Part shown: positions 39,970-59,028 of the stretch, one piece after another | Position numbering within the stretch: the first letter of the stretch is position 1 | Layout: the number at the start of each line of letters is the position of its first letter | Made by a program: the position numbers and the translations under genes | Assembly: GCA_024998625.1 (NCBI GenBank) | Contig: JACOEL010000004.1 | Location: 124,001-188,000 of the forward strand | Source of the DNA: Nitrospira sp. | GTDB taxonomy: Bacteria; Nitrospirota; Nitrospiria; Nitrospirales; Nitrospiraceae | DNA: 64,000 nt | Direction: 5' to 3' | The notes under the pieces: generated by a model | What the model saw: the letters and a program-made list of their open reading frames with translations, nothing else | Databases searched by the model: none | Told to the model about the DNA's origin: nothing

Positions 39970-41049
39970 ATGGGTATTGCGTCCCATGGACAGGGATGCG
40001 ACGATCGTGCAGTTCGTATGTCAGTCGCTCGCCTCAATCCATCTCAACTCTTTCGGTCAGAAACATCGGCTGTGCCGCTGTCGTACAACATGGATCACGT
40101 GATTCCTGAGTTCCCAGGCCAGGTGCATGCCAGAACTGGGCTTGCCCACACTGGGTATGCGCATGCGGACTACGCTGCATCCTTGGCGGGATTTGGAACC
40201 CCTCGCCATCTTCGGCGCTGTGATGGGTGGATTCTCGAGCGTCAGATTCCGGGCACGCCGTATCGAGATGCGATCGGCCCCTATCCATTGTTCAGCTGCC
40301 TGGATTGGTCTCAACTTGCCCAGGACCTGGACGAAGTCGGAACGGATCTGGTCAGCCTCATGGTCGTTCCTGCCCCGTTTGACGGGTATTCTCGTCCGCT
40401 TCTTGAGCGCTGTTTTACGCAGGTGATTCCGTTTAAATCGCACTATGTGACCGATCTTACGCAGCCGCTGGAGAAGATCGTCAAGAAATCTCACAAGGAT
40501 ACGGTGGCGCGCGCGGCGAAAAGGGTAGCAGTGTCACACTGTGTGGACCCGGTCGCACATCTCACAAAGTGGGTCGAACTGTTCGACGTGCTCGTCAAGA
40601 GACATCACATCACGGGCATTCGCGCCTTTTCGCCGGAGGCCTTTGCCAAGCAATTAGCCATTCCCGGCATGGTGATGTTTGAGGCCCAGGCGAACGGAGG
40701 AACCGTCGGACTCGATCTGTGGTATACCCAGGCAGATGTCGCCTATGGACATTTGGTGGCGTTTAGTCAGCTTGGGTATGAATTACGCGCGTCGTACGCC
40801 ACGAAGTGGTTTATGCTCAATCACTTTGCCGGGAAGGTGAGATGGGTCGATCTGGGAGGGGGCGCCGGTGTGAGTTCGAACGCGACCGACGGCCTTTCCG
40901 TCTATAAAGAGGGGTGGAGCACCGGAACCGTCCCCGCTTATCTCTGCTGCCGAATTTTTAATCATTCTCTGTACGATTCATTGTCCGCGGCCCGCGGTAC
41001 AACCGGCAGCAGCTATTTTCCTGCCTATCGAGCAGGCATCCCGTTCTAA
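39970..41049 (+). CDS. GNAT/FemAB-like acyltransferase
   Basis: About 359 residues. The start is uncertain: ATG at 39970, 40018 or 40090, each with a poor ribosome site. The C-terminal half follows the FemAB-like double-GNAT pattern seen in polysaccharide clusters: IVKKSHKDTVARAAKR (a basic helix), FDVLVKRHHITGIRAFSP, MVMFEAQANGGTVGLDLWYT, VAYGHLVAFSQLGYELRASY and a final WVDLGGG. Such enzymes transfer acyl or aminoacyl groups to sugars or peptides. The donor here is unknown. Confidence 0.7.
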   Translation: MGIASHGQGCDDRAVRMSVARLNPSQLFRSETSAVPLSYNMDHVIPEFPGQVHARTGLAHTGYAHADYAASLAGFGTPRHLRRCDGWILERQIPGTPYRDAIGPYPLFSCLDWSQLAQDLDEVGTDLVSLMVVPAPFDGYSRPLLERCFTQVIPFKSHYVTDLTQPLEKIVKKSHKDTVARAAKRVAVSHCVDPVAHLTKWVELFDVLVKRHHITGIRAFSPEAFAKQLAIPGMVMFEAQANGGTVGLDLWYTQADVAYGHLVAFSQLGYELRASYATKWFMLNHFAGKVRWVDLGGGAGVSSNATDGLSVYKEGWSTGTVPAYLCCRIFNHSLYDSLSAARGTTGSSYFPAYRAGIPF

Positions 41050-41277: not shown

Positions 41278-42132
41278 ATGTCGTCCCAAGTGTCTCTTGA
41301 TGTAGCCAGGTCCCTGCCGACCGCTGAGGAGTGTATCGCCTCAATCGAGCGCGATGGCTACTGTTACGTGCCGCAGATGTTCTCGCCCGAACAGGTGTCC
41401 ACGGCGCTGGAGCGGATTAAGTACTGGTTCGACAACACGCTGTCGTCCCAATCCGAGCGGATGCCGTATCTCAACAAAGACCAATCGATGGTGTACAACC
41501 TCCAAAGCAAGGATCTCTTTCTTCTTCGGATGGTGCTCGGCTGCGAGCTCATCGAGAAGGTTCTGATGCAGTTTCTGAATGACCGGTGGTTTACCTCAAT
41601 CCCGTCAGATGCACCCAATTATATTCTACGATCGTTTCTTGCCCGAAGCAGCAATCACCAAATGCCTTTGCACATCGACTCGTTCATCCCCTATGCGGGT
41701 CCCCATGTTTTCATCATGCAGTGTTCGATTCCTTTGGAGGATCAGACGGAAGACAATGGTTGTACCGTGCTGATTCCGGGCTCTCACCTTTCGGGAAAAT
41801 ACTGTTCGCAAGATGCTTTCCCTTCCGCCGTGTCCATCAAGGCTCGGGCGGGAGATCTCGTCTTTTGGGACAGTCGAATCTGGCATGGAGCCCGTCAAAA
41901 CACCAGCGGGGGGACGCGCTGGGCCATGATCGCTACATTTTGCCGCTGGTGGATTAAGCAAGCTTTCGACATCCCGGGCAATCTTCCCCAAGAGCTCTAT
42001 GATCAGTTGACCGAACGCGAAAAAAGCGTGCTCGGGTACTGTTCGGTTCCTTATGACAACGAAAAGCATGGCATCGATATGAAGCGGAGCTATTCGTTGC
42101 TGCCCCAACAGGTGGTGGATTACCGCAGGTAA
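41278..42132 (+). CDS. PhyH-family 2-oxoglutarate/Fe(II) dioxygenase, copy 1
   Basis: 284 residues. PhyH proteins hydroxylate or otherwise oxidise small molecules. The iron triad is H132 and D134 (PLHIDSF) with H203 (WHGARQN), and R214 in GGTRWAM may hold 2-oxoglutarate. A perfect ribosome site GGAAGGAGGAG precedes the ATG. It is followed 28 bases later by the MBL-fold gene, forming a likely functional pair. A second PhyH gene, with different surrounding residues, is at 45798. Confidence 0.88.
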   Translation: MSSQVSLDVARSLPTAEECIASIERDGYCYVPQMFSPEQVSTALERIKYWFDNTLSSQSERMPYLNKDQSMVYNLQSKDLFLLRMVLGCELIEKVLMQFLNDRWFTSIPSDAPNYILRSFLARSSNHQMPLHIDSFIPYAGPHVFIMQCSIPLEDQTEDNGCTVLIPGSHLSGKYCSQDAFPSAVSIKARAGDLVFWDSRIWHGARQNTSGGTRWAMIATFCRWWIKQAFDIPGNLPQELYDQLTEREKSVLGYCSVPYDNEKHGIDMKRSYSLLPQQVVDYRR

Positions 42133-42160: not shown

Positions 42161-43645
42161 ATGCCAAAAGATCTCACAGTCACTTACGTCTCGCATGCTT
42201 GTCTCCGAATCGACGGCGAGTTTGGCTCGCTGTTGTGCGATCCCTGGTTTTTGAATGAGCCTGTGTACGACTACGCCCTCTGGAAGTTTCCTCCGGCGGT
42301 GATTCCGCCTGAGGTTCTGCTGAAGGACCTTGATTATCTCTACATCACACATTCGCACGAAGATCACTTTCATATTCCGTCGATTAATCGTATCCCCCGT
42401 GACATCCAAGTGCTGCTCCCGGAATACGCCAACCGACCTTGCTTGCGCGCCCAACTGGTGGAACGCACCATGCGGGAGATGGGTTTTCATCGGATCAGAA
42501 AAATTCAGCCGTGGGAAACGATTCACCTCGGGGGAATCACACCGTTTACCGTCGTGCCATCGGCGAAATCGCGCGCTCACGATTGGGAGAATTCCGGCTT
42601 CGTGATCGATCATCCCGGAACGCGTCTTATCAACATGAACGACAACTGTGATGACGAAGAACTCTGTTCGGAGATCCACTCGCGCTGGCCGACCTTTGAG
42701 ATCGGCTTTGTCCAAACCTCCAGTGCCACAGTGTTTCCAGCCTGCTATCGCATGCCGCCTGAAGCCAAGGAGGAAGCCGCCCGGAACAAGTGTGAGACGT
42801 TTACACTGCACAAACGTTTAATCGAAATGCTTCACCTGCAACGCATCGTTCCTTTCGCCGGAGACTTCGGCTGGTATGACGATCGGTATTTCAGCCACAA
42901 TTGGCAGGGCCGGTCCACGCCGAAGATTCTGGAGAATTGGATCCGCGAAAATTATCCCGATCGGGATGTCGCCACGCTCTATCCATCCGACACCTGGTCC
43001 ATTTCCACTGGTATTGTTCGTAATCATCCCGATGTTGATTGGGGGCAATATCTGGACTTCGTCAGAACCTGCAAACAGAAACTTCAGAAGAAGGTGGATC
43101 ACTACAATGCATGGATCGATGCATCGGATCGGAGTAACCTCCTTCAACGCTCGCGTCTGCACACGGAGACCATCAACAAGCACATTACGCAAGACGGCAT
43201 CGTCTTCAGTGGTCGTTTCCGCGTGATCGTGGAGGGAGACAACTCGAACTTTTCCTTTGTGTTGAAAGCCAATCCTCAGGATGGATTTTCCATCGATTGG
43301 GAAGACACGGAACCTGTCGACCAGTCGATTTATGTGCCCGAGCGCCTCTGGGCGGCCATTTTGGAAGGTAAGATCATGTGGGGCATGTACCAATGGACGA
43401 CGGAGATCAAGGAGCATGTGCCGTACAGACTGGATCTTGGCCGCTTCTGGTATTGGTTGGAATACAACCTCGATTTGGGTAACAAAAACTCCCAGGCCAT
43501 CATGGAGCCAAAATTGTTCCCGCACTTGAGCGGTCCGACGATTCGGCCGGAGTGGGGAACGATTGAATTCGAAGACGATTGGGAGTTCCCGTGGCTCAAT
43601 CGAGAAGTGGCCTCGGGGCAGGAGTCGGCTCACCAAAGTGCCTAG
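42161..43645 (+). CDS. MBL-fold protein related to the C-terminal part of CMP-Neu5Ac hydroxylase
   Basis: 494 residues. The metal motif HSHEDH is at 64-69 in LDYLYITHSHEDHFHIPS. A block RIVPFAGDFGWYDDRYFSHN, followed by TPKILENWI and TLYPSDTWS, lines up in order and spacing with the corresponding PFAG-containing part of animal CMAH, as I recall it. CMAH makes CMP-Neu5Gc with an N-terminal Rieske domain, but no Rieske cysteine/histidine pairs are present here, so electron transfer would need a partner. The C-terminal third (about 330-480) may be a separate binding domain. Context beside PhyH and NeuABC genes suggests a sugar-acid substrate. Confidence 0.75.
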   Translation: MPKDLTVTYVSHACLRIDGEFGSLLCDPWFLNEPVYDYALWKFPPAVIPPEVLLKDLDYLYITHSHEDHFHIPSINRIPRDIQVLLPEYANRPCLRAQLVERTMREMGFHRIRKIQPWETIHLGGITPFTVVPSAKSRAHDWENSGFVIDHPGTRLINMNDNCDDEELCSEIHSRWPTFEIGFVQTSSATVFPACYRMPPEAKEEAARNKCETFTLHKRLIEMLHLQRIVPFAGDFGWYDDRYFSHNWQGRSTPKILENWIRENYPDRDVATLYPSDTWSISTGIVRNHPDVDWGQYLDFVRTCKQKLQKKVDHYNAWIDASDRSNLLQRSRLHTETINKHITQDGIVFSGRFRVIVEGDNSNFSFVLKANPQDGFSIDWEDTEPVDQSIYVPERLWAAILEGKIMWGMYQWTTEIKEHVPYRLDLGRFWYWLEYNLDLGNKNSQAIMEPKLFPHLSGPTIRPEWGTIEFEDDWEFPWLNREVASGQESAHQSA

Positions 43646-43680: not shown

Positions 43681-43739
43681 CCGGCCTTGTGCCGGCGGTT
43701 TACAGAAGGAGAGTGGCGCCGCTTCAGGCGGCGCCACTC
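43681..43739 (+). terminator. Two stem-loops between the MBL and formyltransferase genes
   Basis: A small hairpin CCGGC/GCCGG (43681-43695) and a 12-base-pair perfect one (GAGTGGCGCCGC against GCGGCGCCACTC, 43711-43739, loop TTCAG). No T tract follows, so this is perhaps a pause or processing site rather than a strong terminator. Confidence 0.5.
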
Positions 43740-43811
43740 CCGGCCAACCGGTGCTCCATCCGTCACCCAAGCCGCCCACAGACGCCTCTTCATGTTGTGT
43801 GGAGTCGTAGC

Positions 43812-44519
43812 ATGCATAGACAAGATACACGATTCATTTTCGTCGTTTCGACTTCAGGGTCGGTGATGAAGCGAGTCCTGGCAAGCAATTTTCTCCGCGC
43901 CGTGGTTCATTCCGTGGTCGTGGATCAACCATGTCAAGCTGTGGCGGAAGCGCAGGCTTGGGGGATCCCCGTGACATTGTTCGAGGAAGGTTCACCGGAG
44001 GCGTTCTGTTCCAGGTTGAGCCAGTATATGGAAGAGCACCACATCCACTATGTCATTTCTTTTTACACGCAGTTCTATAGCAAAGCCTTCCGCGATGCCT
44101 ATCGGGACCGCATTATCAATTTTCATCCGTCGCTGTTGCCGGCGTTTAAGGGAATGGACGGATTTGGCGACGGGGTGGCCTATCATACGAAGATCATCGG
44201 GACAACGGTGGAGTTCATCAAGGACGTGATGGACGAAGGCAAGATCATTATGCAAACCGCATGCACCGTAGATCCAAGATTGAGTCGCGCAGTGTTGCGC
44301 CACCGTATTTTCGTTCAACAATGCAAGACGCTTCTCCAGGTTGTGAAGTGGCTGATCGACGATCGTGTGCGGGTGGATGGCGATCAAGTGACGATCGTCG
44401 ATGCCGGGTATCATGACCTCGAGTTTGTGCCGGCATTGGAGTGTCGAGAGGCACTCGATCTCCAGGTAGCACTCCCTTCTGTAACGGCAGGGACCGCCAC
44501 TATGGTGACACGGTGGTGA
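43812..44519 (+). CDS. Formyltransferase-family protein (GART-like fold)
   Basis: 235 residues from the ATG at 43812, with GGAG 7 bases ahead. The Formyl_trans_N signature is INFHPSLLPAFKGMDGFGDG (about 101-120) and TTVEFIKDVMDEGKIIMQ, providing the Asn-His-Asp triad (N and H in NFHPS; D in FIKDVMD). It is shorter and more divergent than PurN. In a surface-glycan cluster such proteins N-formylate amino-sugars using 10-formyltetrahydrofolate, as VioF and FdtF do. An aminotransferase that could make the amine is at 46700. Confidence 0.82.
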   Translation: MHRQDTRFIFVVSTSGSVMKRVLASNFLRAVVHSVVVDQPCQAVAEAQAWGIPVTLFEEGSPEAFCSRLSQYMEEHHIHYVISFYTQFYSKAFRDAYRDRIINFHPSLLPAFKGMDGFGDGVAYHTKIIGTTVEFIKDVMDEGKIIMQTACTVDPRLSRAVLRHRIFVQQCKTLLQVVKWLIDDRVRVDGDQVTIVDAGYHDLEFVPALECREALDLQVALPSVTAGTATMVTRW

Positions 44520-44525
44520 CCTGAT

Positions 44526-45752
44526 ATGCCTAAGCCGATCACCCCAGGCATTCGCTCCGTCCTGATGGACGGGGTTGTCATGGCACATTCATGCGTGTTG
44601 TGCGGGGCCGAGGAATGGGTCGAGCTGGTCGAGCCGCATCCCCGTCAGTCCGTTCGGGTCGACGGAGTGATTTCGCCGTCGCCGCTTGGGAGGCGCCAGT
44701 GCAAAGGCTGCGGGGTCGGCTTTCGAATATCCAAAGAAGACCTGGAGGTGATGTACCGACAGGACTACGCCTTATACAGCAACCGCCCAGGCGCCGACGC
44801 GTTCAATCGTCAGCGGTATCCCGCGGTGGTCGATCTCATCGCCAGCTCGATACGGCCTCTCCGGCCCCGTCGAATTCTTGAAGTCGGATGTGGAGACGGG
44901 AACACGTTGAGCGCCATACGGGAACTGTGGCCCGACGCCGAAACGGTGGGTTTGGAACCATCCCGCGATGCCGCAGAAGCGGCACGAGCAAGAGGCCACC
45001 GAGTAATCGAGGGGATGGCGGAGTCGTCGTTGGATGACGCGGCGGAGCAAGCTTTCGATCTCGTGTTCAGCGTTCAGGTTATCGAGCACACAGCTGATCC
45101 GGTCGCGTTTTTAGCGTCGCAAAGATCCTGTCTGGCACCCGGAGGAGTCGTAGTGACGATTTGCCCCAATGGGGTGGTGCCTCATGCAGAACTTATCCAT
45201 TCGGATCATCTGTTCTCGTTCGCTCCGTCTCATCTCGCGGCCGTGACGGCCCAGGCTGGGCTGATCCGTCGTGGTGGGTGCGAATTCTTTCTTGATGAAG
45301 CCTGCGAATTCAATCAACTCGTGGTGGCAAGCAAGGCCGCGGATTCCGAATCACCCGAAGTCGGCAGGATGCCGGTAATCAGCCAGGATGAGGTGGCCCG
45401 GCTGGAACGGGCACGGAATGCGTATCTGCGTCGCTGGTCCTGCCTTGAAGGCGAACTCAGCAAACGAGTCGGACAGTGCGGCACCCTCATCTGTTTTGGC
45501 ACCGGTGGTTGGTCTGCCAATTTAGCCGGGTACGCGCCGGCCATATGGGAGCGCATACAAGCCTGTACGGTTGACCATCCCCCGACAACCACCTACATGA
45601 ATAAACCCGTAATCGAATACTCGAGCCTGCATAAGCAGGAGGCGGACATAGTCATTGTGGCGGTCAATCCTTGTCGACAGGATCTGGTCTCCCAACGACT
45701 GCGCCGAGACGGGTATCGCACCGTTCAGTGGAACGATCTGATCGAGAGATAG
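44526..45752 (+). CDS. Zinc-ribbon class I SAM methyltransferase (sugar C-methyltransferase-like)
   Basis: Up to 408 residues. The start may instead be ATG 44580 (MAHSCVLCG). Two CxxC pairs (CVLCG and CKGCG) form the N-terminal zinc-binding domain. The methyltransferase core has ILEVGCGDGNTLSAIRELWPDAETVGLEPS, SVQVIEHTADPVAFL and LAPGGVVVTICPNGV. The C-terminal domain has ICFGTGGWSANLAGY and VIVAVNP, like the Methyltransf_14 domain of TDP-sugar C-methyltransferases. It begins 6 bases after the formyltransferase gene. Confidence 0.86.
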   Translation: MPKPITPGIRSVLMDGVVMAHSCVLCGAEEWVELVEPHPRQSVRVDGVISPSPLGRRQCKGCGVGFRISKEDLEVMYRQDYALYSNRPGADAFNRQRYPAVVDLIASSIRPLRPRRILEVGCGDGNTLSAIRELWPDAETVGLEPSRDAAEAARARGHRVIEGMAESSLDDAAEQAFDLVFSVQVIEHTADPVAFLASQRSCLAPGGVVVTICPNGVVPHAELIHSDHLFSFAPSHLAAVTAQAGLIRRGGCEFFLDEACEFNQLVVASKAADSESPEVGRMPVISQDEVARLERARNAYLRRWSCLEGELSKRVGQCGTLICFGTGGWSANLAGYAPAIWERIQACTVDHPPTTTYMNKPVIEYSSLHKQEADIVIVAVNPCRQDLVSQRLRRDGYRTVQWNDLIER

Positions 45753-45797
45753 GACTCGCGCTCACGGGTGCGGTGTCGTGACGAAAGGGGAGAATTC

Positions 45798-46649
45798 ATG
45801 CAGGCTATAGCGTCCGCTGCTACTGCTCTTCGAACTACCTTCAATGATCAAGGTTATGTTCTCGTAAGGAATCTCATTCCCGAAGTCATCGGGAACCGAG
45901 TTTTGGAGGATCTTAGGCTCGCGACCACCCAGCTCTTGCAGTGCCGTGATCTCCTCACTCCGGAACTCCATCGTGGAGAACTCTTGGAATTGCTCAAGGC
46001 GGTGTTCAGTCTGGATCTGAACCTGTATCTGAGCATTCTGCGCTTGGGCAGCAAGTTGCAGTCGGTCTATGCGTTGGCCCTGCATGAGCGAATCATTCAC
46101 CTGCTCAATGAATTAGGCTGCAAGGCGAGTGTCTTGCCCTGTGGAGTTGCTATCCATCTTGTGGCCGACGAGTTGAAGATTCCAGGCGGGTACTTCGGGT
46201 GGGGCGCGCACCAAGACTGGTCGTCGGCTCAAGGCAGTTTGGACCAGCTGGTCTTATGGACGCCGCTCATGGATGTGGACAAAGACTTCTATCCCGTCGA
46301 AATCGTACCCGGGAGCCACAAATTGGGTGTGTTACCTGGAGATCGGCAGAATGCCAATAACAGGGGCGCATTGATTACCATTCAACCCGGCTTTGTGGAC
46401 GAGAAGGAGTTTGTGTCCGTCGAAATGAATCGTGGTGATGTCTTGATGTTCTCGGGACTCCTCGTGCATCGGACCGGCACCGGGACTCGCAAAGGACTCC
46501 GTATCGCCTGCGGGGCGCGTTTCGACAATCTTGAAGAGCACACGTTTGTCAATCGAGGCTATCCCTGTGCCTTTCGCCTCCATGCGGAAACGCAGATACT
46601 GCATCCCGGGTTCCCCACCGCCGATGAGGTGCATCGGCTCTTTCAGTAA
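45798..46649 (+). CDS. PhyH-family 2-oxoglutarate/Fe(II) dioxygenase, copy 2
   Basis: 283 residues from the ATG at 45798, preceded by GGGGAG. The iron ligands are H138 and D140 in WGAHQDWSS and H224 in LVHRTGTGTRKGLR, with R235 as the probable 2-oxoglutarate anchor. PVEIVPGSHKLG is the usual PhyH strand. It differs greatly from copy 1 outside the iron site, so the two likely act on different positions or substrates. An aminotransferase gene follows 50 bases downstream. Confidence 0.88.
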   Translation: MQAIASAATALRTTFNDQGYVLVRNLIPEVIGNRVLEDLRLATTQLLQCRDLLTPELHRGELLELLKAVFSLDLNLYLSILRLGSKLQSVYALALHERIIHLLNELGCKASVLPCGVAIHLVADELKIPGGYFGWGAHQDWSSAQGSLDQLVLWTPLMDVDKDFYPVEIVPGSHKLGVLPGDRQNANNRGALITIQPGFVDEKEFVSVEMNRGDVLMFSGLLVHRTGTGTRKGLRIACGARFDNLEEHTFVNRGYPCAFRLHAETQILHPGFPTADEVHRLFQ

Positions 46650-50813: not shown

Positions 50814-52247
50814 ATGAGAGCTGGATTTTCCGAGCGGGATATCACCCCTCCACGCGGTTTGGAAATGCCGGGGGGATCGCGGAGGGCATTTCACGAGGGC
50901 GCGGTTCATGATCCGTGCAAGGTGCGTGCGATGGTATTCGATGATGGCACCGAGCAGGTTGCCCTGGTCAGCGTCGATGCGGTCATCGTGCCTCAGACGC
51001 TAGTGCAATCGGTCCGGGAGCAAATAAAGACTCGTTGCGGTATTCGCCCCTCCTCGGTGATGATCGCTGCCACCCATTCCCATAGCGCGGGTCCGCTGGG
51101 ATTCTATGAACGTGGCCGATTCGATCATGCACCAGAATGGATTCAGCGGCTAGCCTATGAGCAATCGTCCTGCGCCGACACCGGCTACATCAGGCATGTG
51201 AGAGAGCAAATCGTATCGGCAGTGTCCGAGGCATGGGCCAGTCGCATGGAAGTCGAGTGTGGGGTGGCGAAGGGGTGCGAAACCAAGGCGGCCTTCAATC
51301 GCAGATTCCGTATGCGAAACGGACTCACCTACACGTTCCCAGGGCAGGGAAACCCCGATATCATTTCGCAAGCGGGTCCGATCGACCCGGATGTGGGCGT
51401 TTTAGGAGCATGGGACCAGGAGGGGCGTCTCCGGGGCTGTATCGTCAATTATGCCTGCCATCTGACGAGCAAACCCGGCGGTACTTCTGCGGATTGGGTT
51501 TATTATCTTGAACAGGTCATCCGTGCGGGCCTTGGCTCCGATGTCGTGGTTCTGTTCCTCAACGGCGCCTGTGGCGACATTACTCCTGTTGATACGTTGG
51601 GGCGATACGAGAACCAGATCGGCGAGAAGTGGGCTCGGCGTATCGGCGCGCGCGTAGGAGCTGAAGCGATCAAAGCTCTCCTGGATGCCGTCCCGGGCGC
51701 AATGGCGCCGGTGTGCGCTCGGGTGAGGCAGCTGAACATTCCTCGGCGGCGACCGAGTTCGGAAAGAGTTGAACAGGCCAGCCTGCTGCTGATGGACGAC
51801 AGTTCCCGGGAGGAGACGTCTGAAAGGTTCTTTGCGAGAGAAATAGTGTTGCTAGATGCGCTCTTACAGCGCGAATCTGAAGCCGACGTGGAAGTTCAAG
51901 TCATGCAGATCGGTCCGGCTGTGCTGCTTGCCTGTCCAGGAGAGCTCTTCTGTGAATTGGGGCTGAAGCTGAAAACTTCCAATCAGTTTGCATTTGTGTT
52001 TCCCGTCTCACTCGCCAACGGCTTTTGCGGGTATCTGCCCACAATTGAGGCGATGAGCGCCACCGGCGGTGGTTATGAAACACGATTGACGAGTCATTCC
52101 AACCTTGAAATTGGGGCGGGTGACATCATCGTCGAGGCCCTCGCGGAACTGGCTGCTGATTTGACTCCGGGTTCTATGCCGGAGCCTCCCTGTCCGCCTG
52201 GTTTCACAAGAGCTTGGAGCTTCGGCAACGTGCCGGCCGAATGCTGA
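50814..52247 (+). CDS. Neutral/alkaline ceramidase-like protein
   Basis: 477 residues. The neutral/alkaline non-lysosomal ceramidase N-terminal family is shown by AGFSERDITPPRGLEMPGG at the start, the zinc-ligand block MIAATHSHSAGPLGFYE (about 84-100), LNGACGDITPVDT (about 246-258) and NGFCGYLPT. Most bacterial members with this domain hydrolyse amides and are annotated from the fold only. There is no strong secretion signal, so it may act in the cytoplasm. In this cluster it could remove N-acyl groups from sugars or lipids; that is inference. Confidence 0.82.
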   Translation: MRAGFSERDITPPRGLEMPGGSRRAFHEGAVHDPCKVRAMVFDDGTEQVALVSVDAVIVPQTLVQSVREQIKTRCGIRPSSVMIAATHSHSAGPLGFYERGRFDHAPEWIQRLAYEQSSCADTGYIRHVREQIVSAVSEAWASRMEVECGVAKGCETKAAFNRRFRMRNGLTYTFPGQGNPDIISQAGPIDPDVGVLGAWDQEGRLRGCIVNYACHLTSKPGGTSADWVYYLEQVIRAGLGSDVVVLFLNGACGDITPVDTLGRYENQIGEKWARRIGARVGAEAIKALLDAVPGAMAPVCARVRQLNIPRRRPSSERVEQASLLLMDDSSREETSERFFAREIVLLDALLQRESEADVEVQVMQIGPAVLLACPGELFCELGLKLKTSNQFAFVFPVSLANGFCGYLPTIEAMSATGGGYETRLTSHSNLEIGAGDIIVEALAELAADLTPGSMPEPPCPPGFTRAWSFGNVPAEC

Positions 52248-52337
52248 CACCTTTCTACCAGGCTGGTTCAAGTCGTGAGATCCATCGCGCGCGCCAATGA
52301 CCAAGGATAGGCTTCCGGCGATCCATTGAGGTGTGAG

Positions 52338-54146
52338 GTGCGAATCAGTGTGGTGAGCGGCATCGTACTGGGTCTGGTGCTCGGAGCGGCCTGCATCGGC
52401 TTGTATGTGTGGCGGCACCAAGGCACGTCGGATTTTGTGACCGACCTCGTCATGGTGCCGATGCGCGACGGAGTGAAATTGCAAACGGTTGTCTGGCGGC
52501 CGATCGGGGCGGGGCGTTATCCGGTGGTCTTGAGCCGCGGATACAATACGACGGGCCCAGCCCTCGCTAAACCGTTTGTCGATGCAGGTTATGCCTATGT
52601 CGGGCAAGCAACCCGTGGGCATGCAGGCTCGGAAGGGGAACATGGTGTCGCCGATCGCTTCTTTGCCGACGCACGCGATGGATACGATACGCTGACTTGG
52701 ATCAGCGAGCAACCATGGTCCGATGGACAGATTGCCATGTACGGCAAGTCCTACTGGGCTGGGACGCAGTGGCTGGTCGCGGTCGAACAGCATCCGAATC
52801 TGAAGGCCATTATCCCGCAAGTGATGAATGCCGACGTCTGGCAATGCGGTTACCGGTGTAATGGGGCGTTATCCTTGGCGCTAGCGGCCGGAGGGAGAGC
52901 CTATAGCCAAGACAGCATGGCTGAGATCACCGCCCTCGGCTTGCAGAATTTCTTTCGCCATCTCCCGCTCATCACGCTGGACAAACGAGTCGGTGGTACA
53001 CGCCTGCGTGGCGCCCATGAACTGTGGGAACAGTATGTGAGCCATTCCACGTTCGATGAGTATTGGCAAGCAATCACCATTCGCGGAGATGGTCAGGACG
53101 GCAAATATCGAAAGATCAACATTCCCGTCTACCTTATGGGCGGATGGTATGACTACTACGCGGGGGCCGCTTTTACCAGCTTTCAGCAGCTGAAGAAGGC
53201 CGATCCCACGAGGGATGTGCGGATCGTCATCAATCCCTCAGATCATTTGAATCGCGTGGTGAGCGGCCGGGAGTTCGGGGGCCATGCCGGAAAGGACGAA
53301 ATCGCTCTTGCCACCAGATGGTTGGATTACGTGGTGCGCGGGGCCAACAACGGAGTGGAAGCTGAACTCCCGATCAAAATATTCGTCATGGGCATCAATG
53401 AATGGCGATATGAACGAGAGTGGCCCCTGGCGCGCACCCAGTATACAAAGTACTACTTTCACGCCCCGGACGGAACACGGCTCGGGACACTCGACACTCA
53501 CCCCCCGGGCAACGAGCGACCGTCCGCCTATGAGTATGATCCCGACAACCCGGTTCCGACATTAGGTGGGAACCACTCCGTCATCGATGGCGAGTTGGCG
53601 TCGATCATCCGAGCCGGTACGGTGGACCAGCGACCCAATGAAGGACGATCCGACGTGTTGGTTTGGTCCAGTGCGCCGCTCGCGCAACCGCTGGAAGTGA
53701 CCGGGCCGATTGTGGTCAAGTTGTTTGCCTCATCCTCGGCACCCGATACCGACTTTGTTGCCAGATTGATCGATGTGTATCCGGATGGGACCGCCTATAA
53801 TCTGACCGAAGGAATTCTTCGCGCGCGTTTTCACCGCTCCATTTATGGGGAGCCGGAGCTCCTGGTGCCGGGGACCATCTACGAATTTACAGTCACACTG
53901 CAACCGACGAGCAATGTCTTCCTGGCCGGACATCAAATCCGGCTCCATGTCACCAGCAGCAATTTTCCGCTCTGGGATCGGAACCCCAATACCGGGCACC
54001 CTCAAGGGATGGACGCCGAGATACAGCCGGCTACGCAACGGATCTATCACGATCGCGCGCATCCTTCGCACCTGGTTCTGCCCGTGATTCCCGCCACCAC
54101 TGATTCGACCGCTGTCCGACTGACTGGTGCAATGGAGGTGGGCTGA
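52338..54146 (+). CDS. CocE/NonD-family serine hydrolase
   Basis: About 602 residues from a GTG at 52338 with AGG-type ribosome bases 6 bases ahead. An N-terminal membrane helix (about 5-23) suggests export or anchoring. The X-Pro dipeptidyl-peptidase (S15)/CocE fold has VPMRDGVKLQTVVWRP, GYAYVGQATRGHAGSEGE and the nucleophile elbow MYGKSYWAGTQ with Ser138. A C-terminal jelly-roll domain (about 385-595) ends in HLVLPV. These enzymes cleave esters or amides; the substrate is unknown. Confidence 0.87.
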   Translation: MRISVVSGIVLGLVLGAACIGLYVWRHQGTSDFVTDLVMVPMRDGVKLQTVVWRPIGAGRYPVVLSRGYNTTGPALAKPFVDAGYAYVGQATRGHAGSEGEHGVADRFFADARDGYDTLTWISEQPWSDGQIAMYGKSYWAGTQWLVAVEQHPNLKAIIPQVMNADVWQCGYRCNGALSLALAAGGRAYSQDSMAEITALGLQNFFRHLPLITLDKRVGGTRLRGAHELWEQYVSHSTFDEYWQAITIRGDGQDGKYRKINIPVYLMGGWYDYYAGAAFTSFQQLKKADPTRDVRIVINPSDHLNRVVSGREFGGHAGKDEIALATRWLDYVVRGANNGVEAELPIKIFVMGINEWRYEREWPLARTQYTKYYFHAPDGTRLGTLDTHPPGNERPSAYEYDPDNPVPTLGGNHSVIDGELASIIRAGTVDQRPNEGRSDVLVWSSAPLAQPLEVTGPIVVKLFASSSAPDTDFVARLIDVYPDGTAYNLTEGILRARFHRSIYGEPELLVPGTIYEFTVTLQPTSNVFLAGHQIRLHVTSSNFPLWDRNPNTGHPQGMDAEIQPATQRIYHDRAHPSHLVLPVIPATTDSTAVRLTGAMEVG

Positions 54147-55114: not shown

Positions 55115-56134
55115 TTGGCCATCATGACTCACCCTTGTCTCATTATCGGTGAAGTGGGGCAAGCCCACGACGGAAGCCTGGGGTTGGCCCATGCCTATAT
55201 CGACGCGATTGCCAACGCGGGGGCTGACGCGGTCAAGTTCCAGACACATATTGCGCAAGCCGAGAGCACGCCGGGTGAGCCCTGGCGGGTGAAGTTCAGT
55301 CGCCAGGATGCCACGCGCTACGACTATTGGCGACGCATGGAGTTCTCGGAAGAACAATGGCAGGGTCTTCGCGCCCATGCTGCAGATCGTAGGTTGAAGT
55401 TCATCAGTTCACCGTTTTCACTGCCTGCCGCTCAGATGTTGCAGCGTGTAGGGTTGGATGGGTGGAAGGTCGCATCAGGGGAGATTACCAACCGCCCGCT
55501 GCTTGAGTTCATAGTCGCATCCGGCATCCCGATCCTGCTATCCACGGGCATGAGCGCTCTGCCGGAAATCGATGAGGTCGTCGGGTTTTTGCAGACGCAT
55601 CAGGCGCCTACCACCCTGCTTCAATGCACAACGGCGTATCCCTGCCCGCCGGAAAAGATCGGCCTGAATCTTATTCCGATGTACCGAGACCGTTACCGCT
55701 GCAACGTCGGACTGTCGGACCATTCGGGGACGATCTATGCCGGCCTGGCAGCAGCAGCAATTGGGATCGACGCCCTCGAAGTCCACGTGACCATGAGTCG
55801 GGAGATGCCTGGGCCGGACGTGCCGGCGAGTGTGACCGCCGATGAGCTCCGTCAGCTTGTCGAGGGGATCCGGTTCATTGAGAAGATCCGGAATCACCCT
55901 GTCGATAAGGACCAATTGTCGGAAGAAATGCGACCGCTCAGGCGCCTCTTTACCAAAAGCGCCGTGGCGATGTCGGATCTTCCTGCGGGAACGATTCTGT
56001 CATCCGAACATCTGACCTTCAAGAAACCTGGCACAGGGATTGCCGTCGAACGAGTCGGAGAGATTCTGGGGCGCAAGCTGCGACGGCCGGTACCGGCAGA
56101 TACGCTACTGTCGCAGGATGATTTCGAGCCATGA
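55115..56134 (+). CDS. NeuB-like nonulosonic acid synthase with SAF domain
   Basis: 339 residues from a TTG, which has AAAGGA exactly 7 bases ahead; an ATG nine bases in is further from that site. NeuB-type enzymes condense phosphoenolpyruvate with a hexosamine to make sialic, legionaminic or pseudaminic acid. IIGEVGQAHDGSLGLAHAYIDAIANAGADAVKFQTH and FISSPFSLPAAQML and KVASGEITNRPLLE mark the TIM-barrel; LQCTTAYPCPPE and GLSDHSGT follow. An antifreeze-like SAF domain occupies about 280-339. It overlaps the next gene by 4 bases. Confidence 0.92.
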   Translation: MAIMTHPCLIIGEVGQAHDGSLGLAHAYIDAIANAGADAVKFQTHIAQAESTPGEPWRVKFSRQDATRYDYWRRMEFSEEQWQGLRAHAADRRLKFISSPFSLPAAQMLQRVGLDGWKVASGEITNRPLLEFIVASGIPILLSTGMSALPEIDEVVGFLQTHQAPTTLLQCTTAYPCPPEKIGLNLIPMYRDRYRCNVGLSDHSGTIYAGLAAAAIGIDALEVHVTMSREMPGPDVPASVTADELRQLVEGIRFIEKIRNHPVDKDQLSEEMRPLRRLFTKSAVAMSDLPAGTILSSEHLTFKKPGTGIAVERVGEILGRKLRRPVPADTLLSQDDFEP

Positions 56135-57120
56135 GCACCCCTGTTTTCGATGTCCCGCCAGGGACGTATCGTATTCTCAACCTCGAGCCGGAAGGGTACT
56201 GCGGAGAAGCACGTGCGGTTCTGGCGCGGTTAGGGGAGATCAGCGATGGGCCGCTGTGTCGGCGTGAACTGCTGGAGCGTATCTCAGCCTATGACATTCT
56301 GATCGTCCGGCTACACCACCAGATCGATCGGGAAGTGTTCGAAGCGGGCACGAATCTGAAAGCCATCGTGTCAGCGACAACCGGCCTCGACCATATCGAT
56401 CTCGAGACGGCAGAGGCGCGGAATCTTCCTGTACTCAGCCTGAAAGGCGAACAGACCTTTCTGAGCACCATCACCGCGACGGCTGAGCACACCTGGGGAT
56501 TGTTGCTTGCCCTTATGCGACGCATTCCTGAAGCGATCGATTCAGTACAGGCCGGACTGTGGAATCGAGACGCGTTGAAGGGACACGATCTGGAAGGAAA
56601 ACGGCTCGGCATCGTCGGTTTCGGGCGGTTAGGCAGGCAGGTCGCGAGCTATGGATCGGCCTTCCGGATGCGTGTCGCCGCATACGACCCCTTTATCGAC
56701 ATCTGGCCGACAACGGTGCTGCGCAAACCGTCTTTGCTTGAGTTGCTCGCAGAGAGCGATATTGTGACCCTTCACGTCAATCTTCATCCGGGCGCCGTGA
56801 ATCTAATCGGCCGAGCGGAATTGGCCGCACTTCCCGGAGGCGCTGTGCTGGTGAACACGTCGCGAGGGCAGATCTTGGATGAAGCGGCCCTGCTTGACGC
56901 CCTCGTTTCCGGGCGGCTCAGCGGAGCGGCGCTGGACGTGCTTGCGGATGAACGCCGTCACGACCTCCGTTCAAACAATCCGCTGCTGATCTATGCCAAG
57001 CAGCAGCGGAACTTGTTGATTACTCCTCACATCGGCGGAGCGACTCATGAAGCCATGTGTAAAACGGAAGTGTTCATGGCTCATAAATTGACTCAATTCC
57101 TTCACAACCTCCCGGCCTAA
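56131..57120 (+). CDS. D-isomer-specific 2-hydroxyacid dehydrogenase
   Basis: 329 residues overlapping neuB by 4 bases. The NAD-binding Rossmann motif is LGIVGFGRLGRQVASYG (about 154-170); TLHVNLHP, GGAVLVNTSRGQILDEAALLDAL and a final TPHIGG (catalytic His in ITPHIGGAT) complete the family. It reduces or oxidises a 2-keto or 2-hydroxy acid. Its place between a NeuB-type and a NeuC-type gene is unusual and suggests action on a nonulosonic-acid precursor or on a C3 unit linked to it; this is inferred only from operon position. Confidence 0.87.
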   Translation: MSTPVFDVPPGTYRILNLEPEGYCGEARAVLARLGEISDGPLCRRELLERISAYDILIVRLHHQIDREVFEAGTNLKAIVSATTGLDHIDLETAEARNLPVLSLKGEQTFLSTITATAEHTWGLLLALMRRIPEAIDSVQAGLWNRDALKGHDLEGKRLGIVGFGRLGRQVASYGSAFRMRVAAYDPFIDIWPTTVLRKPSLLELLAESDIVTLHVNLHPGAVNLIGRAELAALPGGAVLVNTSRGQILDEAALLDALVSGRLSGAALDVLADERRHDLRSNNPLLIYAKQQRNLLITPHIGGATHEAMCKTEVFMAHKLTQFLHNLPA

Positions 57121-57142: not shown

Positions 57143-58294
57143 ATGCGGAAAGTGTGTGTCGTCATCACTGCTCGACCGAGTTATTCCCGGATCAAAACCG
57201 TTCTTCAAGCGATCAAGTCTCATCCGGATCTTCAACTCCAGCTCATTGTTGCGGCGTCGGCTCTGCTGGAGCGATACGGCGAGGTCGTGAACGTCATTCG
57301 TGCGGACGGCTTCCAACCGGACGCAATCGTTTACATGGTGTTGGAAGGCGAGAACCTGATCACGACCGCGAAGTCGACCGGCTTGGGCGTGGTCGAACTC
57401 GCCACGATCTTCGACAATATTCGCCCCGATGTCGTGATCAGTGTCGCGGATCGATTTGAAACGATCGCGACGGCCATTGCCGCATCCTATCTCAATATTC
57501 CGGTGGCGCACGTCCAAGGCGGAGAAGTCACGGGATCGATCGATGAGAAGGTCCGGCATGCGGTGACGAAGCTGTCTATCCTGCATTTCGTCGCCAATCG
57601 ACAGGCAGCAGACCGGGTGATCCGCATGGGAGAAGACCCGGAGATGGTCTTTATCACCGGCTGTCCTTCGATTGATCTCGCCGAGCGTGTTCAAGGCTCC
57701 ATGGATAAGGGGTTTGACCCTTTTGCGGCCTATGCCGGAGTCGGAAACCGCTTCGACGCTCGCGACGGCTATATGGTGGTCATGCAGCATCCGGTCACCA
57801 CCGAGTATCGCGATTCGGCATCGCAGATTCACGAGACCATTTCTGCCGTCAGGACGTTGAACCAGCCGACCTTCTGGTTCTGGCCCAATGTGGATGCCGG
57901 TTCGGATCAGATTTCGAAAGGCCTGCGCCAATTTCGCGAGGCCGGAGAGACTTCGCAGATCTATTTTTTCAAGAATATGACACCGGAGGATTTTCTCCGG
58001 CTGCTTGCCGGCGCCCGTTGTCTGGTGGGGAACTCCAGCGCGGGGATCAGGGAGGCGTCGTATCTTGGTCTTCCGGTGGTCAACATCGGCAATCGTCAGC
58101 AGGGGAGAGAACGAGCGAGGAACGTCATCGACGTCGGATATAACGCTGCCGAGATCGTGGAGGCCACCGAGAAACATCTGGCCAATGGCCGGTATCCATC
58201 CAGTCCTCTGTATGGCGACGGCAAAGCAGGCGAGCGTATTGCGCAAATCTTGGCCCGGGTTCCCCTGACCGTGGAGAAGAGGATTGCATACTGA
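57143..58294 (+). CDS. NeuC-like hydrolysing UDP-GlcNAc 2-epimerase
   Basis: 383 residues. It hydrolyses and epimerises a UDP-HexNAc to the free mannosamine-type sugar for the NulO synthase. The N terminus reads KVCVVITARPSYSRIK, replacing the more common GTRADYG, and the core is VAHVQGGEVTGSIDEKVRHAVTKLSILHFVANRQAADRVIRMGEDPEMVFITG over about 121-173, with LVGNSSAGIREASYLGLPVVNIG at the UDP site. The neuA-like gene begins at the last base of its stop codon. The exact sugar (GlcNAc or a diacetylated form) cannot be read. Confidence 0.88.
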   Translation: MRKVCVVITARPSYSRIKTVLQAIKSHPDLQLQLIVAASALLERYGEVVNVIRADGFQPDAIVYMVLEGENLITTAKSTGLGVVELATIFDNIRPDVVISVADRFETIATAIAASYLNIPVAHVQGGEVTGSIDEKVRHAVTKLSILHFVANRQAADRVIRMGEDPEMVFITGCPSIDLAERVQGSMDKGFDPFAAYAGVGNRFDARDGYMVVMQHPVTTEYRDSASQIHETISAVRTLNQPTFWFWPNVDAGSDQISKGLRQFREAGETSQIYFFKNMTPEDFLRLLAGARCLVGNSSAGIREASYLGLPVVNIGNRQQGRERARNVIDVGYNAAEIVEATEKHLANGRYPSSPLYGDGKAGERIAQILARVPLTVEKRIAY

Positions 58295-59028
58295 TGGACA
58301 GGACCCAGAAAGTACTCGCGGTGATTCCGGCTCGGGGCGGCTCGAAAGGGGTGCCTCGCAAGAACATTCGTTCCGTCTGCGGGAGGCCGTTGATTACCTA
58401 TACCATTGAACATGCTCGCGCGGCGCAGCACCTGTTCCACCGTATCATCGTGAGCACGGACGATGAGGAGATTGCGACGGTAGCGAGGGAGTACGGGGCG
58501 GAGGTGCCGTTTCTCAGACCGGCGAATCTGGCCCGCGACGAATCACCCGTGATTCCCATGCTCCAACATGCGGTCGATTTCATTGAAAGACAGGATGGGG
58601 TCCGTATGGATTGGATTTGTCTTCTCCAGCCGACGGAACCGTTTCGGACCGTCTCAGATCTAGAGCAGTGCCTCCGTTTGGGGTTTGCGGGCGGCTGTGA
58701 TTCCGTCATCAGTGTGGTGCGGGTTTTCGCCACACATCCCATCTTGATGAAGCGCATCGAAGATGACGTCCTTCTGCCGTTTTGCGTGGAAGAGCGGGAA
58801 GGCACCAGACGACAGGATTACCAGCCGGCGGCGTACATGCGTAACGGATCGATCTATCTGAGCAGGCGAGACGTCTTGATGGAGCAGGGGTCCATTTGGG
58901 GACAAACGATTCGTCCCTATGTGATGCCTCTGGAACGATCGGTGAGTATCGATACGGAGCTCGATCTCAAGCTGGCCGAACTCATGATGTCGGAGCAAAT
59001 CGCCCTAGAACGGAGTGGAAGCCTCTAA
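58294..59028 (+). CDS. CMP-nonulosonic acid cytidylyltransferase (NeuA-like)
   Basis: 244 residues. It activates the nonulosonic acid with CTP. VLAVIPARGGSKGVPRKNIR (about 7-26) is the CTP-binding start; STDDEEIATVAREYGAEVPF, RDESPVIPMLQHAVD, WICLLQPTEPFRTVSDL and YMRNGSIYLSRRD follow. The end SIDTELDLKLAE matches the family. Its start overlaps the NeuC stop by 1 base and its end is followed 1 base later by asnB. Confidence 0.92.
   Translation: MDRTQKVLAVIPARGGSKGVPRKNIRSVCGRPLITYTIEHARAAQHLFHRIIVSTDDEEIATVAREYGAEVPFLRPANLARDESPVIPMLQHAVDFIERQDGVRMDWICLLQPTEPFRTVSDLEQCLRLGFAGGCDSVISVVRVFATHPILMKRIEDDVLLPFCVEEREGTRRQDYQPAAYMRNGSIYLSRRDVLMEQGSIWGQTIRPYVMPLERSVSIDTELDLKLAELMMSEQIALERSGSL

Follow-up and report, generated by a model that had tools for sequence, protein, structure and literature searches.

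The window, by which we mean the whole stretch of 64,000 nucleotides of Nitrospira DNA analysed here, holds a gene that raises the question whether an enzyme like the CMP-Neu5Ac hydroxylase (CMAH) can do without a Rieske domain of its own and, if so, what it would act upon. CMAH hydroxylates the N-acetyl group on sialic acid, which becomes N-glycolyl (PMC8227644). A sequence-only reading had proposed that the gene encodes a Rieske-less homologue of CMAH within a nonulosonic acid (NulO) island, and that it might form a two-protein system with a PhyH dioxygenase, directed at a NulO.

Motifs, domains and occurrence of the window protein

The gene and the features of its product, referred to below as the window protein, are:

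42161..43645, plus strand: the window protein, 494 aa, a Rieske-less MBL-fold member of the CMAH/NamH superfamily
42161..43015, plus strand: MBL domain, residues 1-285 (Pfam Lactamase_B_2/B_3; VIA-align rows at about residues 1-290)
42350..42367, plus strand: metal-binding motif HSHEDH, residues 64-69
42638..42643, plus strand: N160-D161, with D161 as the presumed bridging Asp ligand (invariant in the 12-sequence alignment)
42851..42862, plus strand: PFAG block, residues 231-234, common to CMAH and the window protein
43133..43468, plus strand: SCP2-like C-terminal domain, about residues 325-436 (separate structure model)

The open reading frame starts with an ATG and the MBL domain is the only one recognized by Pfam (Lactamase_B_2 35 bits, Lactamase_B_3 32 bits). 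The motif HSHEDH, the PFAG block and, downstream of it, TPKILENWI and then TLYPSDTWS are found on the 494-aa frame in exactly the order that the sequence-only reading had given. Across a 12-sequence alignment the residues D27, P28, W29, H64, H66, D68, H69, F109, N160 and D161 are invariant and probably mark the metal site. The four residues of the HxHxDH motif (H64, H66, D68 and H69) are conserved in CMAH and NamH as well, and the Asp at position 161, a presumed metal ligand, is conserved in CMAH. The Cys/His pairs of a Rieske domain, said to be missing, are indeed so: the pattern C-x-H-x(10-30)-C-x2-H is absent from the window protein and its four close homologues, the same scan finds it in NamH, bacterial CMAH and animal CMAH, and Pfam yields no Rieske match in the window protein.

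The C-terminal domain has a predicted SCP2-like fold. An AlphaFold model of the entire protein, built from five sequences, was of middling quality (pLDDT 62) and is sufficient for the fold only; the separate model of the C-terminal domain was of similarly middling confidence (pLDDT 64). Modelled alone, the domain had SCP2 proteins as its best Foldseek matches (E 6e-3) and aligned with 3bdq at a VIA Z of 9.5. One family member showed a weak SCP2 match (E 0.04) and the Pfam domain SCP2_Rv3818 of NamH sits at the corresponding place. Comparison of sequence profiles for the C-terminal domain alone gave no match in any group of interest, and the SCP2 assignment therefore follows from the fold and the Pfam match in NamH.

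Homologues that are close over their full length (46-53% identity) were recovered from only 4 of the 84,980 GTDB species genomes scanned by exact peptide patterns, a procedure that can miss divergent copies. All four genomes are alphaproteobacterial: Denitrobaculum (L001), Pelagibius and two MAGs (L001-L004 together). The protein recurs at 97-99% identity in two congeners of the host, in which the whole operon is conserved; the operon is common to three congeneric genomes. The viral contigs and phages that were searched contained no relatives, and the plasmid search returned only distant kin, MBL proteins of actinobacterial and haloarchaeal origin. In the host genome a single copy is accompanied by a 540-aa paralogue that is nearer to CmlA (L006 871-2490 on contig C8; CmlA 2e-10 in the PDB). 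In around half of the genomes of the order, weak matches to the N-terminal stretch of the window protein were observed, mostly in open frames of ~540-600 aa, which possibly represent a widespread uncharacterised family. More Rieske-free MBL proteins with the same motifs (446-465 aa; L014, L015, L017, L022 and L029) were found in genomes of the host's family.

Kinship with CMAH and NamH

A congener of the host (G039) encodes a 557-aa protein (L048 18-1691, minus strand, contig C10) with an N-terminal Rieske domain followed by an MBL domain. Compared with animal CMAH it shows 40% identity across 568 aa; the animal sequence used was checked by Pfam and by this same identity, and none of the conclusions depends on that sequence by itself. 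Judged by its sequence, the protein is a complete, true bacterial CMAH, encoded by a member of the host's genus. The contig that bears it measures only 6.9 kb and contamination is possible.

Rv3818 is NamH, a muramic acid hydroxylase with an N-terminal UlaG-type and a C-terminal Rieske domain (PMC10050696). The actinobacterial plasmid proteins are of the Rv3818 type according to Pfam, consisting of MBL, SCP2_Rv3818 and a C-terminal Rieske domain. The substrate of NamH is UDP-MurNAc. On a Microbacterium plasmid (L054 2507-4264) the NamH-like gene is annotated in three pieces (MBL, hypothetical, Rieske), and is either frameshifted or accompanied by a naturally separate Rieske protein.

A family profile of five members (the window protein and its four close homologues) scored NamH at 74-89 bits, haloarchaeal proteins at 67-80, the bacterial CMAH at 56 and animal CMAH at 23, whereas 1000 shuffled relatives reached at most 4.9 bits, so that the match to CMAH and NamH exceeds chance. 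In profile-profile comparison the haloarchaeal Rieske-free proteins were found at 99.6% probability over 390 columns, NamH at 99.4% over 303 and CMAH at 98.3% over 246. The alignment of the family with CMAH runs from columns 13-287 against 135-399 and hence includes both the PFAG and the TP blocks. Pairwise BLAST of the window protein with the MBL part of bacterial CMAH gave 25% identity over 241 aa and went no further than the PFAG block (residue 236); the claimed match to the later block of CMAH, in order, thus holds in the profile alignment and is not seen in the pairwise one. The tree sets the window family, CMAH and NamH apart as three 100/100 clades without settling their deep order, and the window protein falls outside the CMAH clade, as the two CMAH rows group at 100/100 without it. 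From these sequence comparisons, the homology with CMAH is real but distant. The special relation to CMAH that had been read into it does not survive, as the matches to NamH and to the haloarchaeal proteins are no weaker and the window protein stands in a clade of its own. It lacks the Rieske domain that defines CMAH and NamH and is therefore not a member of either.

NamH is the closest characterised kin by profile (99.4%). Both have the MBL domain first and the SCP2-like domain (by fold only in the window protein) second, and the HxHxDH and ND motifs are common to both. On the other hand, identity is just ~20%, NamH has a C-terminal Rieske domain that is missing from the window protein, and MurB lies near the NamH-type gene on two plasmids, whereas the gene studied here is part of a glycan island. 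CMAH has the MBL domain with HxHxDH, DPW, PFAG and the later block in the same order, but both CMAH sequences (animal and L048) possess an N-terminal Rieske domain. The haloarchaeal MBL proteins (Halobaculum, Halolamina) give the best full-length profile match, have no Rieske pattern and in one case are encoded near glycan genes; they are, however, uncharacterised and have neighbours unlike those of the window protein.

The glycan island and the neighbouring genes

The following genes surround that of the window protein:

39970..41049, plus strand: FemAB/GNAT-like acyltransferase (matched at 4.5e-10 by a profile of the L001/L003/L004 neighbours)
41278..42132, plus strand: PhyH-type Fe(II)/2-oxoglutarate oxygenase, ending 28 bases upstream of the window protein gene (Pfam PhyH 86.6 bits)
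43689..44519, plus strand: PurN-like formyltransferase, directly downstream of the window protein gene
44526..45752, plus strand: methyltransferase
45768..46649, plus strand: second PhyH-type oxygenase, homologous to the one that adjoins the MBL gene in L001/L002
46685..47971, plus strand: DegT/DesI-like sugar aminotransferase (TIGR04427 553 bits, cut-off 650)
55115..56134, plus strand: NeuB-family NulO synthase
57143..58294, plus strand: NeuC-family hydrolysing UDP-GlcNAc 2-epimerase (above the NCBIfam cut-off)
58294..59028, plus strand: CMP-NulO synthetase (PseF-like)

Immediately beyond the window lies a second NulO-type set (L081 2324-7627) with NeuB, a CMP synthetase, a hexapeptide acetyltransferase, an SDR and a fusion of a KdsC/KDN-9-phosphatase-like domain with a phosphoheptose-isomerase-like SIS domain. 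Considering the NeuB, NeuC and CMP-NulO synthetase genes in the window and this second set outside, the island is, by its gene content, a true NulO island, as had been supposed. A D-2-hydroxyacid dehydrogenase gene (window 56131-57120) separates NeuB from NeuC, which is unusual for a NulO operon, and genes for a neutral ceramidase-like protein and a CocE/NonD-type hydrolase lie inside the glycan island (window 50814-54146).

A FemAB-like acyltransferase is encoded near the gene in five of five lineages. A formyltransferase gene adjoins it in the window, L001, L002 and L003; two types are represented, the window encoding a PurN-like enzyme and L001 an Fmt/ArnA-like one. DegT aminotransferases are found nearby in the window, L001 and L004. 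In L001, as read from the translations, flagellar hook genes flank the cluster on one side and flagellins on the other, and the surroundings also include an OGT-like TPR glycosyltransferase and RmlA. A TylF-like methyltransferase adjoins the bacterial CMAH and has a homologue (29%, 3e-20) near the Rieske-less gene in L001, L002 and L004. As in the window island, a dTDP-sugar aminotransferase is combined with a methyltransferase in the viosamine islands of Pseudomonas, and some strains have a PurN-type formyltransferase there too (PMC3927599).

Proposed reaction and substrate

With the window protein alone as query, CmlA was the first match in the PDB (4e-4), the alignment beginning at residue 7 of the window protein and 255 of CmlA. 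The 12-sequence profile ranked CmlA (2.6e-18) and FrsH (5.9e-13) above NAPE-PLD, the best hydrolase (4.2e-8), and SaxA (1.4e-6), which argues for an oxygenase rather than a hydrolase; queries with bacterial CMAH and with NamH both retrieved FrsH first. CmlA and FrsH, diiron amino-acid beta-hydroxylases, are the best solved relatives by sequence and are oxygenases without a Rieske domain, and the HxHxDH motif and the bridging Asp of CmlA recur in the window protein. They differ in that a large N-terminal part, missing here, precedes their MBL part, which begins near residue 250, and in that their substrates are carrier-bound amino acids. Glu 377 of CmlA, a metal ligand, is not conserved; the aligned residues are A135/K136, of which K136 is not conserved in the clade. 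Taken together, CMAH, NamH and, further off, CmlA would appear to belong to one superfamily of MBL-fold oxygenases.

Should the protein instead be an MBL-fold zinc hydrolase (amidase, esterase, deacylase or sulfatase-like), it would trim a glycan precursor and no oxygen chemistry would be involved. Most MBL proteins are hydrolases, and MBL-fold alkylsulfatases likewise carry SCP2-like domains. UlaG/UPF0173-type hydrolases have the same fold, and the structure search by which the sequence-only reading could have been refuted left 3rpc, UlaG (2wyl/2wym), UPF0173 and CmlA nearly tied at Z 17-19 (18.8-17.6 for the hydrolases and CmlA). The sequence profiles, however, favour CmlA and put it ten orders of magnitude ahead of the best hydrolase; UlaG/UPF0173-type proteins score lower, their extra His ligand is missing from the window protein, and no alkylsulfatase occurs among the PDB matches of the 12-sequence profile up to E 10. 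The His at position 253 of NAPE-PLD, a zinc ligand, aligns with K136, which varies in the clade, and there is no His at this position in CMAH and NamH either. We consider a hydrolase unlikely on these grounds. More improbable still is a hydroxylase that, like CMAH, turns the CMP-activated NulO of the island into an N-glycolyl or otherwise hydroxylated form. The CMAH homology would fit, the NeuB, NeuC and CMP-NulO synthetase genes are located 11-17 kb downstream and kept in the three congeneric genomes, and the second NulO-type set follows. Against this, the 10-kb flanks of the gene in the four other relatives contain no NeuB homologue (all four genomes have one elsewhere), and FemAB, aminotransferase (DegT), formyltransferase or RmlA genes are present instead. 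In addition, the congener that bears the true CMAH yielded no match to NeuB or NeuC at 99% genome completeness, and the gene itself is located in the FemAB/aminotransferase part of the operon. The idea of a NulO substrate is thereby weakened, and an acylated amino sugar is the more likely substrate.

The proposed two-protein system fares no better. It would have PhyH as the hydroxylase and the MBL protein, itself no oxygenase, as the one that binds or presents the substrate. The 28-base spacing is as it had been reported and is kept in two congeners, and a PhyH gene is found just upstream in L001/L002 as well. That PhyH, however, is a homologue of the second PhyH of the window and not of the adjoining one, so that the neighbouring PhyH is not the same across lineages, and for L003 and L004 the neighbourhood of the gene yielded no PhyH homologue. 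Given that PhyH enzymes generally need no partner and that the metal motif of the MBL protein is fully conserved, such a partnership is highly improbable.

We regard the chances as about even that the window protein is a Rieske-less MBL-fold iron oxygenase, which hydroxylates the N-acyl (or aminoacyl) group of an activated amino sugar. To our knowledge, no activity or metal has been established for any Rieske-less member. The main argument against an oxygenase is the human CMAHP product, which is limited to the beta-lactamase-like domain and was stated to be inactive for lack of a Rieske domain (PMC8227644). The main argument in favour is by analogy, as CmlA and FrsH are active without a fused Rieske domain and FrsH was driven by dithionite and methyl viologen (PMC7794379). 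CMAH and NamH both hydroxylate a sugar N-acetyl group, which supports N-acyl hydroxylation by the window protein, and most probably it works like these two. The sequences show the homology, the order of the domains, the absence of a Rieske domain and the conservation of neighbouring genes; for the metal, the reaction, the substrate and the electron donor alike, we infer the following scheme. The MBL domain probably binds iron via H64, H66, D68, H69 and D161, and this site would activate O2 and hydroxylate a C-H bond of the N-acyl (or aminoacyl) group on an amino sugar of a cell-surface glycan. The substrate would most likely be a dTDP-4-amino-4,6-dideoxyhexose that the DegT aminotransferase produces (a dTDP-glucose 4,6-dehydratase is present in the host genome) and the FemAB-like or the formyl transferase acylates, and the SCP2-like domain may help to bind its acyl or nucleotide part. 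Electrons would come from a separate donor in place of the fused Rieske domain. The rest of the host genome contains ten Rieske matches, of which some fall in short stand-alone frames, and such proteins could supply them; the nearest stand-alone Rieske gene lies ~53 kb from that of the window protein and none is linked to it.

In its widest form the proposal is tentative and we give it somewhat less than an even chance: a Rieske-free branch of CMAH/NamH would perform N-acyl hydroxylation with a separate donor, the MBL domain would be the O2 site in CMAH and NamH themselves, and the product would be a new hydroxylated acylamino sugar for surface or flagellar glycans. The site of the oxygen chemistry in CMAH and NamH appears to be still open to structural test, because no CMAH or NamH entry was present among the PDB matches of the window family, bacterial CMAH and NamH. 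A natural relative without the Rieske domain would make it possible to ask if oxygenase catalysis needs no more than the MBL domain. A bacterial CMAH-like sequence should not be taken as proof of Neu5Gc. If the proposal is true, surface glycans may contain a new hydroxylated sugar, and the N-glycolylation of sialic acid, the N-glycolylation of mycobacterial peptidoglycan and the beta-hydroxylation of antibiotics would be linked in one superfamily.
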